Virus record (IMG/VR): IMGVR_UViG_3300030451_003020
Location: 1 to 53,002 of that record
Length of the DNA stretch: 53,002 nucleotides
Direction: 5' to 3' (one strand)
Source: a virus
The position numbers and the translations under genes were made by a program. A model generated the notes under the pieces. The model searched no databases. It saw only the letters and a program-made list of their open reading frames with translations, and had not been told where the DNA came from. Below, in pieces: positions 15,952-23,027 of this stretch; position 1 is the first letter of the stretch, and each line of letters begins with the position of its first letter.

Positions 15952-17382
15952 ATGGCACCAAAAATTAAAGCAAATATATCAAATCTTGAGGATTTTTTAT
16001 ATGAAATTGGTCCTGTAAATACTAAAGAACAGGTGTCATATAATAAAACGTTGTTTGAAGTTTATAAAAGTAGAGGAGGTTTAGAAATATACGTCGAAAA
16101 TCCTCCTGGTAAAAAAAGTGAATTGAATAAATTTAGAAACGGAATAGTAAATGAAATAAAGGGTAAGTTTACGGGCATTAATATTTTTAAAAATGATGGT
16201 GTGCCATATGTTAAAGTGGGTCCGCAAACTATCACTTTTGATATAGAAGAGGATGTAGATATTGGAGGTGGTGGAGTCATACCTACAAAAATTCAAGAAG
16301 AGGGAACCACAGTTGTTTTAAATCAAGTATTGCATAATAATAAAAAATTTGATAAAAAAGAAGACATACTGGATGACTTGGAGACTGCCAAAGAATTGAA
16401 AAAATTATTTGGTAAAAAGTATGAAGGCAGGTTAAAAGAGTGGACGCATAGTTACTTTGAGCAACAAAGAGAATTCTTAAAAAAATTTCAAAGTGCGAAG
16501 TGGGATGTCTTTGTATATGGAAAGGATGATTTTGTTACTTTCTTTTCTAAACAAATAAAAAATGTTGCCAGATCACTTGATCCAATAAAACCAGTAGGAA
16601 ACTACACGACTTGGAATCCATCTGATATTTGGGCTGTCTATGAGGGAGATAAAGTTAAAAAAGAAATAGAAAAAAATATTAATCCAAAGACTCAAAATTT
16701 AGTTGAATTAAATAATCTACTCATAAATTTATTTAAAGAGAAAAAACTAATTGGATTGTCTCTTAAAAAAATTGCATCTAATAAATCTGCTAAATTAAAA
16801 TTTGTTAATATCGACACATCTACCATGAAAATAGGTGAAATTGAAACTTTCGATATGAAAGATATATCATTTGATATTGATAATATTTTTATCGGAGATA
16901 AAGTAACAACATATGTAAAACTGGGAAGGCAAGGTGAATATTCAATTAATATCACAAGAGCAGGACAAAACTTAAGTTTCAATACTGCAATTAAAGCAAC
17001 ACCTGCAGCTCAAGGTGGTCAAGCACCTGTTAAGATGATTCAAGATATTTTGAAAAAATCTGGACCAACTTCATTCATCAATGATCATAACAAATATCCA
17101 CAATCTATTGTAGAATATCAAAAAGAGGCAAAAAAATATTCAGAAATGTATAAATTTTTAGGGAAATATTTTAAAAAATCTGTTCCTTACTCAGAATTTG
17201 AGAGTAATCTTTATGCTGTGTATAGTAAGGATAAACGAAATGCAATTGTTAAACTGATGACACTTAACTTTTTTCACGACTCTTTAAAAAATAATTCTAA
17301 AGATAAAGAGTTCTGGACTGATATGTTATATCTTGGTATGAAAGTAGGGAAAAGATTCTCACCTCACGCAAAGATATCATAA
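15952..17382 (+). CDS. Unknown AT-rich-coded protein (476 aa), weak PD-(D/E)XK signature
   Basis: I do not recognise the family with confidence. The protein is basic, lysine- and asparagine-rich. Around residues 220-280 it reads NPSDIWAV, then LNNLLINLF, then LIGLSLKK, a spacing resembling PD-(D/E)XK nucleases (PxD followed by SxKK). Residues 105-106 mark a Gly-rich linker (DIGGGGV). Codon use is visibly richer in TTA, ATA and AAA than in the replication genes. It has no ribosome site and starts right after an inverted repeat. Together with the next gene it may be a recently acquired pair. Confidence 0.7.
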   Translation: MAPKIKANISNLEDFLYEIGPVNTKEQVSYNKTLFEVYKSRGGLEIYVENPPGKKSELNKFRNGIVNEIKGKFTGINIFKNDGVPYVKVGPQTITFDIEEDVDIGGGGVIPTKIQEEGTTVVLNQVLHNNKKFDKKEDILDDLETAKELKKLFGKKYEGRLKEWTHSYFEQQREFLKKFQSAKWDVFVYGKDDFVTFFSKQIKNVARSLDPIKPVGNYTTWNPSDIWAVYEGDKVKKEIEKNINPKTQNLVELNNLLINLFKEKKLIGLSLKKIASNKSAKLKFVNIDTSTMKIGEIETFDMKDISFDIDNIFIGDKVTTYVKLGRQGEYSINITRAGQNLSFNTAIKATPAAQGGQAPVKMIQDILKKSGPTSFINDHNKYPQSIVEYQKEAKKYSEMYKFLGKYFKKSVPYSEFESNLYAVYSKDKRNAIVKLMTLNFFHDSLKNNSKDKEFWTDMLYLGMKVGKRFSPHAKIS

Positions 17383-18245: not shown

Positions 18246-19466
18246 ATGAAAAGTTTCTTTCAGTTTCTGAATGAGGCGCAGTCGCAAGCATCAATGCAGG
18301 CGAAAAAACTGAACCTCAAGAGTGATGGTCACGGTGGTTGGTTAGACTCCCGTGGAAAATTTGTTGCGACTACTGAAGATGGTAAACTGAAGTTTGTTGA
18401 TAAAAAGAAAAAGAAAGTAGAAGATGAACCAACTGCAAGACCCAGAGCAGCAAAACCAGAACCTAAGGAAGAACCCAAGAAGACTGCACTTAAAAAGACT
18501 AGTGCGGTGACAGCAAAAGCAGGTGAGGGAGAGACTGATGCAAAGACTTCAGAGGTTCTGACTGTTGCATTTGGACGTTTTAATCCTCCAACTGTAGGTC
18601 ACGGTAAACTTCTATCTGCTGCAAAGAAAGCATCAGAGGGTGGAGACTTAAAAATATATCCCTCACGATCGCAGGATGCTAAGAAAAATCCGTTGGATCC
18701 TGATATGAAGATTTCTTTTATGAAAAAGATGTTCCCTGATTATTCAGAGAACATTGTTAATGATGATGAGATGAGATCTATTTTTAATGTTCTTACCACA
18801 GCATCCGAGGGTGGATATAAAGATGTAAATATTATTGTAGGATCGGATCGTCAAGCAGAGTTCGAGAACCTTGCAAACAAGTACAATGGTGATCTTTATG
18901 ACTTTGAAAACATTCGTGTTATCTCTGCAGGTGTAAGAGATGCAGATGCTGAAGGTGTTGAGGGAATGTCAGCATCCAAGATGAGAAAGGCAGTTGTTGA
19001 TGGAGATTTTGATGCTTTCCGTCGTGGGACTCCAAAAGATCTAAATGACGGTGATACTCGGGCGTTGTTTGATGCAGTCCGATCTGGTATGGGAGTTAAA
19101 GCAAAGAAAGAAGTTAAAGAAATGTGGGAGATTGCTCCTAAGTGTGATCCTAAAGGTTTAAGAGATAATTATGTCTCAGGAAACATTTTTAATATTGGTG
19201 ATATAGTAGAAAGTCTTCATACTGGTTTGATTGGTAAGATTGTTCGTCGTGGAACAAATCATCTTATCTGCGTTACCAAAGAAGATTATATGTTTAAATC
19301 CTGGATTCGTGATGTGATGGAGGCAGTACAAAACTATCCAGGTCCATCTGGTGTTCCCTCTGATCAAAGACTTGTAGGAACTGATGCTCATCGTGAATAT
19401 GTAATGAGACTAACGGGAACTGCTGGTATAAAGAATTTAATAAATAAGTATAAGAAAAAGAAGTAG
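18246..19466 (+). CDS. Nucleotidyltransferase-fold protein with capsid-targeting-like N-terminus
   Basis: Residues 1-11 (MKSFFQFLNEA) resemble the T4 capsid-targeting sequence of internal proteins (MKTYQEFIAEA), including a gp21-type cleavage site after Glu (FLNE/A). After a Lys/Pro-rich linker (about 20-95) comes a cytidylyltransferase-like domain: FGRFNPPTVGHGKLL near residue 110 (HxGH-type motif), an IIVGSDRQ strand and GMSASKMRKA near 240. The C-terminal part (290-406) is a separate domain with a beta-barrel-like section. I infer an enzyme packaged in the head; the substrate is unknown. Basic structural genes follow directly. Confidence 0.82.
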   Translation: MKSFFQFLNEAQSQASMQAKKLNLKSDGHGGWLDSRGKFVATTEDGKLKFVDKKKKKVEDEPTARPRAAKPEPKEEPKKTALKKTSAVTAKAGEGETDAKTSEVLTVAFGRFNPPTVGHGKLLSAAKKASEGGDLKIYPSRSQDAKKNPLDPDMKISFMKKMFPDYSENIVNDDEMRSIFNVLTTASEGGYKDVNIIVGSDRQAEFENLANKYNGDLYDFENIRVISAGVRDADAEGVEGMSASKMRKAVVDGDFDAFRRGTPKDLNDGDTRALFDAVRSGMGVKAKKEVKEMWEIAPKCDPKGLRDNYVSGNIFNIGDIVESLHTGLIGKIVRRGTNHLICVTKEDYMFKSWIRDVMEAVQNYPGPSGVPSDQRLVGTDAHREYVMRLTGTAGIKNLINKYKKKK

Positions 19467-19476
19467 TTGTATCACC

Positions 19477-21294
19477 ATGTCTGGAATTCATTTGAAAGAT
19501 CTCTCTAAGGTCTATAAAGAACAGATTGCAGAGAAGAAAGACGATTCATATCTTGAAACTGATATGAAAAAACGTCAGAAAAATAATGAAAAGGCACGTA
19601 AAGATATGAAGAAGATGGGTTCTATGAGCAACCCACACTTTGGAAGTGGTCCAACAGGCAGTATGTCTTCTGAGGAAGTTGAGGTTACCGAGGCAGATTC
19701 TTTAGCAGCAATGCAAGCAAGAAGAGAGAAACGTCTTGCCGCACAAAGAAAGAAAATGGGCACCTCCTCAACTGGTCAAGACTTTGGTCATGACTATGGT
19801 ATTTCTTCTGCTGAGCGTAAGAAGAGGCAGCAAGCAGAATTTGATAAGTTTGTTGGTAAGAAAACTCAGAAGGAAGGACTTGATCCTGTAGGTAAGGAAG
19901 ATGGTGATGTCAACAATGACGGTAAAAAAGATAGCACCGACTCATACTTGATGAAGCGTCGTAAGGCAATCGGTAAGGCAATCAAGAGTAAGATGTCCGA
20001 AGGTGTTCGTGACATGGATCCTGAGAAAGGAACTGCTGAAAGAAAGGCACGTCTTGAAAAGAAACGTGGTATGAAGATGGATGATCATCCTGAGTATAAG
20101 AAAGAGGAATACATCCCTGAAGTCATGACAGACAGTATGGACGAAAAACCCATCAAGGAAAAGAAAGTAAAGAATATTGTAAAGATTAATCCTAAAATGG
20201 GTGAATCTGTAGAAGAGATTGGTGGTGAACTAATTGAAGCAGTTGAAATCTTTGATATCCTTGAAGAGATCACTGATGAAGAACTGAGATTCATCTCTGA
20301 TAAAATGATTAATGAAGTTGTAGAGGAGTTCTTTGCTGAAGCAGTGGAGAAAGATGAGGATCTTGAGGTTCTTCAGCAAAATCTTTGCGAATCAATTGAT
20401 TTATCAATCAGTATTCTTCTGGAGCAAGATGCTGGTGCAGAAGCACGTAAGCGATTAATGAGTCGTCCTTCTAGAGCATCTGTCATGGACAGAGTAAAGT
20501 CTGCTGTTAAGAAAACAGGTAAGGCAGTAGCAAGAGGTGCTGGATATGCTGCTGGTGCTGCAGTAAGAGGAGCAAAAGCAGCAGGTAGAGAGTTCTCTAA
20601 AGGATATGAGAGAGGAAGTACAGGTTCTTCTGGATCCTCTGATTCTTCATCCTCGAATTCTGATTCATCATCATCTTCTGCTCCTAAGAAGAAAGGACCA
20701 GGAATGCTTAGCAGAATTGGTGCTAAACTCAAGAGAGGTATTGGTAAAGCAGCAAGAGCAGTATCTAGAGGTGCTAGAAACGTAGCACGTAAGATGGATG
20801 AGGCAGTTTATGGTGGAACTCCTGCTAAGAAGGAAGCACCAAAGGACAATCGTATGGTAGTCACTGCTGCTGACAAGAAAGGAAATACTCCTGCATATCA
20901 GAGATATAAAGCAGGTGACAAGCGTTATAAGGCTGCTGACCATATGGGTGAGGAAATGTCTCCTCAAGAAATACAAATGCAGAAAAAGAAGGCAACTCTT
21001 GATAAGATGATTGCTATGAAGAGAAAGCAGCAACTTGATAAGACAAAAGCAGAACCTGTCAAGGCAATGGGTGAAGAAGCATCGGATGCGATGAAAGATC
21101 GTCGTATGGAACGTGGTGGGGTTGCTGGTAATCAACGTTATGATCGTCCTGCCAAGGGTGTAAAAACCGGTCCCATGTCTGATGCTGAAAAGAAAAAGTC
21201 AAGAGAAGCATCATCCAGAGCAATGGACTTTGTAAGAGCATCCATCACATCTAAGTATGGTAAGGGTGCCATTATCGATACCAAGAAGAAGTAA
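19477..21294 (+). CDS. Large basic virion-type structural protein (605 aa)
   Basis: This is a low-complexity, highly charged protein (Lys/Arg/Ala/Ser-rich), typical of T4-like cyanophage internal head or core proteins. The N-terminus reads LSKVYKEQIAEKK, again with a possible gp21 cleavage site (IAE). Residues 142-156 contain a calcium-loop-like DGDVNNDGKKDSTD. Two Ala/Lys/Arg-rich helical segments (about 345-375 and 410-445) flank a poly-Ser linker. The neighbours suggest it is packaged with the nucleotidyltransferase. No enzymatic domain is visible. Confidence 0.75.
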   Translation: MSGIHLKDLSKVYKEQIAEKKDDSYLETDMKKRQKNNEKARKDMKKMGSMSNPHFGSGPTGSMSSEEVEVTEADSLAAMQARREKRLAAQRKKMGTSSTGQDFGHDYGISSAERKKRQQAEFDKFVGKKTQKEGLDPVGKEDGDVNNDGKKDSTDSYLMKRRKAIGKAIKSKMSEGVRDMDPEKGTAERKARLEKKRGMKMDDHPEYKKEEYIPEVMTDSMDEKPIKEKKVKNIVKINPKMGESVEEIGGELIEAVEIFDILEEITDEELRFISDKMINEVVEEFFAEAVEKDEDLEVLQQNLCESIDLSISILLEQDAGAEARKRLMSRPSRASVMDRVKSAVKKTGKAVARGAGYAAGAAVRGAKAAGREFSKGYERGSTGSSGSSDSSSSNSDSSSSSAPKKKGPGMLSRIGAKLKRGIGKAARAVSRGARNVARKMDEAVYGGTPAKKEAPKDNRMVVTAADKKGNTPAYQRYKAGDKRYKAADHMGEEMSPQEIQMQKKKATLDKMIAMKRKQQLDKTKAEPVKAMGEEASDAMKDRRMERGGVAGNQRYDRPAKGVKTGPMSDAEKKKSREASSRAMDFVRASITSKYGKGAIIDTKKK

Positions 21295-22154
21295 TGCCTG
21301 CGGTATCTAAAAAGCAGCAACGGTTCTTCGGAATAGTTCGTGCCATTCAAAAAGGTGAGATGGCACCTACTACTCCTGAGACTGCGAAGGCAGCTGCTGA
21401 CATGAAAAAGAGTGATGTAAAAGATTTTGCATCTACCAAGCATAAGAAACTCCCTGAGAAGAAAGTTGCAAAAGAAGCAGCAGATTTTTCTGAAAGAGAT
21501 AAGATTATGAAGAGAGCAAAACCTCTTCATAAGCATCTCTATAGTAGACTACACAAGAAAGATGCGTCTGGTGATGTAAACGAGGAATCAAATCCTCGTA
21601 TTCCTAGAAAGAAAGGACAACCCGCAAACTCTAAGAAGCATTCTGATCTTTACACTGACGAGAATCCCAAGGGAACTATTCATGGTTTAGGATTCAAGGA
21701 TGTTGCAACTGCCAAAGCATCTGTAACGAAGATTCGCAATTCATCTAGATCTCATGCTCATAAAATCCAGGCAGCAGTTGCCATGGAACAGAGAGCAAGA
21801 GAAATGGGAAAGACTTCAGAAGCAGCAGTTTATAGAAAATATATCAACTCAATGAAAAAGAAGACCAAGAAAATGAATGAGGGTTGGTCTGACAAATATA
21901 AGAAATCTATCGACTGTAATAATCCAAAAGGATTTTCTCAGAGAGCACACTGTCAAGGTAGAAAGAAGAAAGTTTCTGAAGAAACTAAGTATGATAGGTA
22001 TGACAAGGAGAAGAAACAGTTTGCTAAAGCAGACCGTAAGATGAAGTTTGGTAAGTTTTATGATAAAGCAAAGGAAGCAAAGAATCGTCTTCGTCCTGGT
22101 GAAGTCAAACGTTACGACAAAAAGTTAGGTAGATACGTTTCTAATAAAGATTGA
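21294..22154 (+). CDS. Basic protein with DUF3008-like N-terminus (286 aa)
   Basis: The start shares a base with the previous stop (TAATG). The N-terminus MPAVSKKQQRFFGIV matches DUF3008, a family starting MPAxSKAQQRFF. The middle (about 100-190) is a basic helical domain with HGLGFKD and SRSHAHKIQAA. The end carries WSDKYKKSIDCNNPKGFSQRAHC, a cysteine-containing module seen in several phage proteins. The high positive charge suggests DNA contact inside the head (inference). Confidence 0.75.
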   Translation: MPAVSKKQQRFFGIVRAIQKGEMAPTTPETAKAAADMKKSDVKDFASTKHKKLPEKKVAKEAADFSERDKIMKRAKPLHKHLYSRLHKKDASGDVNEESNPRIPRKKGQPANSKKHSDLYTDENPKGTIHGLGFKDVATAKASVTKIRNSSRSHAHKIQAAVAMEQRAREMGKTSEAAVYRKYINSMKKKTKKMNEGWSDKYKKSIDCNNPKGFSQRAHCQGRKKKVSEETKYDRYDKEKKQFAKADRKMKFGKFYDKAKEAKNRLRPGEVKRYDKKLGRYVSNKD

Positions 22155-22469: not shown

Positions 22470-23027
22470 ATGGCACTCTGGGGCAATAATGATAACCTGA
22501 ACTCTAATGGCACTGTGACCCTTGACTACAGCACTAACGTAGTAACTGGCACAGGAACCACTTTTGGTGCAGCAGGTGCTGGACATACTGAAGCACAAGT
22601 TGGTGATATCATCAGATTTGGAATTAGAGACGCTGATACATCTAATGGGTTTACTACTTATTTTGGTGATGCTGTAATTGTTGGTATCGCAAGTACAACT
22701 CAATTAACGATTGGATCGACTGCGAACTTAACTGGTGGTGCAATTGGACCAATTGGCACATCATTTACTATTTCTCAGTGTCCTAAGAGCACTATTGTTG
22801 ATTCAAATTATAGTCAACTTAATGGTGACAAGGACACCTTTGTTTATGGTATTTCTACCACTGGTGCTCAGAATGCGAATGCCACTGCATATGAAACTGG
22901 TGTAGGTTGGGTTGGTATTACTACTTACACTGACCAGCACGGAACTCTGAGAGTTAAGAAAGAAGTCTTGGTTGCAATGTCTGGAATCACGACTGGCAAC
23001 GTACCTGCTTTCCCTGATGCTAAGTAA
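22470..23027 (+). CDS. Probable virion structural protein (185 aa)
   Basis: The protein is Gly/Thr/Ala/Asn-rich and beta-rich with few charges, beginning MALWGNNDNLNSNGTV. Proteins of this type are found in cyanophage particles. The dedicated late promoter at 22430 and an AGAG-type ribosome site support high late expression. The exact position in the virion cannot be read; tail, neck or head decoration are possible. Confidence 0.75.
   Translation: MALWGNNDNLNSNGTVTLDYSTNVVTGTGTTFGAAGAGHTEAQVGDIIRFGIRDADTSNGFTTYFGDAVIVGIASTTQLTIGSTANLTGGAIGPIGTSFTISQCPKSTIVDSNYSQLNGDKDTFVYGISTTGAQNANATAYETGVGWVGITTYTDQHGTLRVKKEVLVAMSGITTGNVPAFPDAK

Follow-up and report, generated by a model that had tools for sequence, protein, structure and literature searches.

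A putative NAD-type adenylyltransferase of T4-like cyanophages carries a T4-type capsid targeting sequence

The window, that is, the whole stretch of 53,002 nucleotides analysed here, belongs to a virus record of 67,848 bases from a T4-like cyanophage of marine cyanobacteria. The gene of interest encodes a protein of 406 amino acids that belongs to a core gene family of T4-like cyanophages (T4-GC190, phrog_395) and matches 531 phage records; its nearest annotated relatives are those of S-SM2, Bellamy, SynMITS9220M01 and S-SCSM1, with identities of up to 81% (S-SM2). The preliminary description of this DNA had reported the N-terminus MKSFFQFLNEA on this reading frame, and we found it there, with an ATG start. 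The features of the gene and its surroundings are as follows.

15952-17382, + strand: neighbouring gene, 476 amino acids; weakly similar (23%, E 7e-4) to virion protein 90 of S-SCSM1; residues 12-18 read LEDFLYE, which is tag-like
18246-19466, + strand: coding sequence of the 406-residue protein, T4-GC190 / phrog_395; ATG start; begins MKSFFQFLNEAQSQ
18246-18275, + strand: capsid targeting sequence (CTS, the tag) MKSFFQFLNE; predicted gp21-type cleavage after Glu10 (FLNE-A)
18285-18401, + strand: 38-residue module, residues 14-52 (QASMQAKKLNLKSDGHGGWLDSRGKFVATTEDGKLKFVD), also present in the kinase and Cas9-like virion proteins of S-CREM2
18402-18557, + strand: linker of low complexity (Lys/Glu/Ala), residues 53-104; conservation is poor (mean identity 23%)
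18558-19100, + strand: adenylyltransferase domain, residues 105-285
18573-18602, + strand: catalytic motif GRFNPPTVGH, residues 110-119
18963-18986, + strand: motif GMSASKMR, residues 240-247, with G240, S242, S244 and R247 invariant (alignment A2)
19146-19319, + strand: C-terminal beta domain, residues 301-358 (about); phrog_4808, a module present elsewhere in cyanophages
19477-21294, + strand: neighbouring gene, parts of which match virion proteins 89 and 92 of S-SCSM1
21294-22154, + strand: neighbouring gene, whose N-terminus shares 72% identity with virion protein 93 of S-SCSM1
22470-23027, + strand: neighbouring gene, 60% identical to S-SCSM1_95, a flagged virion protein

The protein thus has a five-part layout: tag, module, linker, adenylyltransferase and C-terminal domain. 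The earlier layout of tag, linker and enzyme was right in all three parts but overlooked the two folded domains at residues 14-52 and about 301-358, and the linker, although present, is rich in Lys, Glu and Ala with some Pro (13 K, 8 E, 8 A, 6 T and 5 P) rather than in Lys and Pro. In the AlphaFold model, for which only window and viral-contig sequences served as input, pLDDT is 93-95 in the module core, exceeds 90 across most of residues 105-285 and drops below 50 in much of the linker; the protein as a whole is basic (pI 9.2). A Foldseek search with the 53-residue N-terminus (tag and module) gave no match (best E 3.4). Upstream of the gene, the search for a late promoter yielded just a CTAAATA-like string, which carries no evidential weight. 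In S-SCSM1, the neighbours 89, 90, 92, 93, 95 and 97 are likewise flagged as virion proteins (PMC9602691), and several of these have counterparts adjoining the window gene. A Pfam match of the 15952 reading frame to Cas9_WED (E 0.019) is below the cut-off and was set aside.

The nucleotidyltransferase domain named in the preliminary description is real: the protein matches phrog_395 with an E-value of 7e-105 and its relatives match the Pfam family CTP_transf_like (49 of 60 homologues; E 0.0072, below the cut-off, for the window protein alone). The core of the (H/T)xGH nucleotidyltransferase fold is conserved as GRFNPPTVGH, and the catalytic motifs GR-NPP--GH, G-D-R and S-S--R are invariant in all 52 homologues aligned. 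The structure search of the domain that had been proposed was run with Foldseek and placed adenylyltransferases on top, namely NadD/NMNAT (NaMN adenylyltransferases) and PPAT, at E-values of about 1e-5 and target-normalised TM scores mostly of 0.5-0.7 (E 7e-6 for the NaMN adenylyltransferase 8aih). Among the NCBIfam profiles, NadD (45 of 60 homologues) and the NadR NMN-transferase (34) are the most frequent specific ones, followed by CoaD (13); with the window protein itself, all of them fall far short of the equivalog cut-off (for NMNAT, TIGR00482, 13.6 bits against 112). Searching the PDB sequences with a profile of the family returned nothing significant. In four tagged relatives (L094, L127, L137 and L196), an AAA_33/zeta-type P-loop kinase follows the NMNAT-like domain. 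In NadR, the NMNAT domain is followed by a ribosylnicotinamide kinase, so the fused relatives appear to show a NadR-like domain order. Because of the motifs, the Foldseek matches, the NadD and NadR profiles and these kinase fusions, we favour NAD synthesis and annotate the domain as a putative NMN/NaMN-type adenylyltransferase. Compared with bacterial NadD, NadR and NadM, it has a similar fold and motifs, whereas its scores fall below the curated cut-offs.

A substrate other than NMN, with a PPAT-like reaction or with transfer of AMP or CMP to another metabolite, is possible, if rather less probable. The TxGH motif is as in PPAT, and Foldseek ranks PPAT entries near those of NadD; the GSD and S-S--R motifs, by contrast, resemble NadD/NMNAT, and both the profile counts and the NadR-like fusions speak against such a substrate. 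The family is also annotated as a cytidyltransferase in hundreds of records, and glycerol-3-phosphate has been suggested as the acceptor (PMC9146016). A role in NAD metabolism was put forward in print, as speculation, in 2022-2023.

Among the 52 homologues, positions K2, F4, F7, E10 and A11 of the tag are 96-98% identical and L8 is 88% identical (L in 46 and F in 5 homologues, with E10 and A11 in 51 each); positions 3, 5, 6 and 9 vary, with identities of 31-56%. The aromatic/hydrophobic pair of T4-type targeting sequences, F4 and F7, is present in 50 of the 52, and a gp21 motif, L/I-x-E ending at residue 10 and followed by a small residue, occurs in the window protein as LNE-A. In T4 IPIII, ten residues are enough, positions 4 and 7 directing targeting and positions 8 and 10 processing (reviewed, from the work of L. 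Black, in PMC9026906), and gp21 cleaves after L/I-x-E (PMC9026906). The residue-by-residue match to the IPIII mutants is, in our judgement, the strongest sequence evidence that the N-terminus serves as a tag. The window protein contains only two L/I-x-E sites, after residue 10 and after residue 322; the mature part of the proteins shows no depletion of such sites (194 observed against 153 expected).

As a degenerate DNA pattern at an ATG, the tag has a single match in the record of 67,848 bases, at the window gene (reversed-pattern control, 0), and is found at three places in the complete T4 genome, which served as a positive control: these are gp61.1 and the genes ipII and ipIII, which encode known internal head proteins. 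Nine cyanophage records (S-SCSM1, S-CREM2, S-SM2, P-SSM2, S-CRM01, S-H34, ACG-2014f, S-SM1 and the 177-kb contig of L159) contain 1-3 matches each, the window-gene family always being among them; the reversed pattern gave none in any of the nine and one match in one other contig. When start codons in viral contigs were scanned for the tag, at least 75 usable reading frames were obtained; at least 54 of these cluster with the window-gene family, the remainder being diverse proteins.

The tag keeps its place while the parts downstream of it change: it is followed by module, linker and enzyme, by linker and enzyme (S-CREM2, L099), or directly by the enzyme (L094, L127 and L137). In the four kinase-fused relatives, there is almost nothing between it and the enzyme's first strand. 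The S-SZBM1 tag is one residue shorter (MRFRQFIIEA), and distant members depart from the canonical form, L109 having none and L182 beginning with MITYKELLEA; the relatives in jumbo phages possess the enzyme without the tag (Muenster, and PA5oct, which begins with MSILTSILNN). The same L-x-E-A pattern is found in the major capsid proteins of S-SCSM1 (FLAE-APT) and S-CREM2 (LLTE-APT), in what we take to be the region of the T4 gp23 cleavage site. No prohead protease was found in the window's own record, which is an incomplete fragment.

Virions have been known to contain this enzyme family since 2010. Mass spectrometry of purified particles detected orthologues in S-SM1 (T4-GC190; PMC3037559), in S-SZBM1 (protein 140, 2 peptides; PMC9146016), in S-SCSM1 (ORF91; PMC9602691) and in S-CREM2 (ORF154, 3 peptides; PMC10665884). 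ORF91 is 68% identical to the window protein, and all four orthologues have the tag at the N-terminus. The claim that the protein is packed in the capsid, made in the preliminary description, gains strong support from the conservation of the tag, which matches the T4 mutational map, from the T4 control (ipII and ipIII) and from the four orthologue proteomes; virion presence itself is established for the orthologues, through this published mass spectrometry.

The tag is not confined to the adenylyltransferase. In the complete genome of S-CREM2, the amino-acid pattern occurs at five annotated gene starts, those of gp6, gp13, gp14 (a kinase), gp154 (the window-gene family) and gp175, and the first four of these are in the virion proteome, which lists 52 of 219 genes (hypergeometric P 0.012). 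The gp6 protein (L089:3837-5081), tagged and virion-detected, matches the Pfam SAM lyase family PF23780 (E 2e-19). An HMM of the module, built from the window-gene family alone, detects two copies in gp14 (E 5e-20) and one in gp12 (E 7e-13), the next-best match in S-CREM2 having an E-value of 0.15; both of these carriers are likewise found in virions.

L089:10579-12846: S-CREM2 kinase (gp14), two module copies
L089:7704-10313: S-CREM2 Cas9/HNH-like protein (gp12), one module copy

The 38-residue DGHG-W module behind the tag is thus common to the adenylyltransferase, the kinase and the Cas9-like proteins. Close to their starts, gp12 and its relatives contain the tag-like stretches RFASFMAEA, GFSSFLKEA or LLSFLSEA; a Pfam search of gp12 gave no match, the name Cas9-like being that of the authors who described it (PMC10665884). 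Given the tags of gp6, gp14 and gp154 and the tag-like start of gp12, all virion enzymes of S-CREM2 that are neither structural nor lysozyme (SAM hydrolase, kinase, cytidylyltransferase and Cas9-like protein) carry a tag or a tag-like stretch. In P-SSM2, the product of gene 114 (L220:1264-1773) is homologous to SAM lyase (E 9e-8) and has a start that resembles the tag (MRTFQEFLQLCEG); its gene adjoins that of a tagged small protein. A SAM lyase with a capsid tag is a candidate for an injected anti-restriction enzyme. SSCSM1_30 and its homologue SSZBM1_191 are also tagged, and SSCSM1_30 has no virion-detected flag; either the tag alone is an imperfect predictor or this small protein escaped detection.

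These observations bear on two explanations that dispense with a delivered enzyme. It is unlikely that the protein is packaged as a structural or core component that builds or condenses the head, its basic linker binding DNA and its catalysis being secondary or lost: the high pI, the status of a cyanophage core gene and the extra domains on both sides of the enzyme would suit such a role, but the catalytic motifs are invariant, S-CREM2-type members lack the module and some members are fused to a kinase. That an abundant late enzyme merely sticks to purified particles, its N-terminal helix having no targeting role, is still less likely, for although carry-over was raised by the authors themselves (PMC9602691, PMC10665884), who note that CsCl-purified virions may bring along abundant soluble enzyme, and although the peptides in S-CREM2 and S-SZBM1 are few, there are four independent proteomes, the conservation is confined to the positions that matter in T4, a like tag is found on other virion-detected enzymes and the jumbo-phage relatives have the enzyme without it.

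Packaging through a T4-like CTS is, in our assessment, strongly supported, and we consider it probable that the protein is an NAD-type adenylyltransferase carried as head cargo. During prohead assembly, the first ten residues, predicted to form a short helix with F4 and F7 that ends in L8-N9-E10, would bind the scaffold core in the way of T4 internal proteins; the gp21-type prohead protease of the phage would then cut after Glu10, leaving the free enzyme in the head with the DNA, and the enzyme would enter the cell along with the genome. In the host, it would act as an adenylyltransferase, most likely converting NMN or NaMN and ATP to NAD, and the proposed benefit is that NAD would be sustained from the very start of infection.

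Among known systems, the N-terminus resembles those of T4 IPII and IPIII in the pattern M-K-x-[FY]-x-x-F-[LI]-x-E-A, conserved at the targeting and processing positions, whereas IPI, IPII and IPIII are small proteins with no known catalytic domain and the cargo considered here is an enzyme with a folded module and a long linker. T4 Alt is likewise a head-carried enzyme whose N-terminal propeptide is cut by gp21 and which is injected (PMC9026906); however, Alt, an ADP-ribosyltransferase, consumes NAD and has a 7-residue propeptide of another kind, and the window enzyme probably makes NAD. The closest counterparts are the virion-detected T4-GC190 proteins of S-SM1, S-SCSM1 and S-CREM2 ("cytitidyltransferase"/NMNAT), which belong to the same family.

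Both the virion presence and the NAD proposal were already in print. What appears to be new, as far as our search extended, is that a cyanophage core gene has a T4-type CTS and that this CTS agrees residue by residue with the T4 mutants; also apparently new are the sharing of the tag by the SAM lyase, kinase and HNH/Cas9-like virion proteins of S-CREM2 and that of the 38-residue module by the adenylyltransferase, kinase and Cas9-like proteins. We found no publication that names a T4-type CTS, or its sharing, on these cyanophage virion proteins, subscription papers lying outside the search.

We are evenly divided on a broader reading, in which marine T4-like phages would use one address system, the CTS, often with the 38-residue DGHG-W module, to bring a set of interchangeable enzymes into the head (NMNAT-like enzyme, SAM lyase, protein kinase, HNH/Cas9-like nuclease and perhaps an acetyltransferase) for anti-defence or metabolic action before phage genes are read. 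If so, the tag could predict injected effectors from sequence. T4 IPI acts on a restriction enzyme, and the SAM lyase, if delivered likewise, would weaken SAM-dependent restriction by the host at an early stage, which fits with the action of IPI. Non-structural enzymes have turned up repeatedly in reports on cyanophage virions, puzzling the authors, who could not distinguish them from contamination; a shared targeting sequence would offer both a mechanism and a sequence rule for the proteins that are loaded and delivered, and the early action of abundant ocean phages on NAD, SAM and host proteins would become directly testable.

A GNAT acetyltransferase of S-CRM01 (L221:1546-1941) has the N-terminal tag MKTFDEFLTEG. 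Near the structural genes of S-SCSM1 and S-SZBM1 lies a gene for a conserved tagged small protein, MK[ST]FK[QS]F[ML]SESVNISGDFNGNLY (L084:44215-44535 and L231), with no virion flag in S-SCSM1. In T4 gp61.1 (L219:667-831), the capsid tag is followed by a stretch which, we assume, resembles the N-arm of gp23. The S-CREM2 protein gp160 and S-SCSM1_97 contain GFTG..GP.AGYDPLM, resembling the arm of the cyanophage major capsid protein past its cleavage site; gp61.1, gp160 and SCSM1_97 are possible mimics of the N-arm of the major capsid protein.
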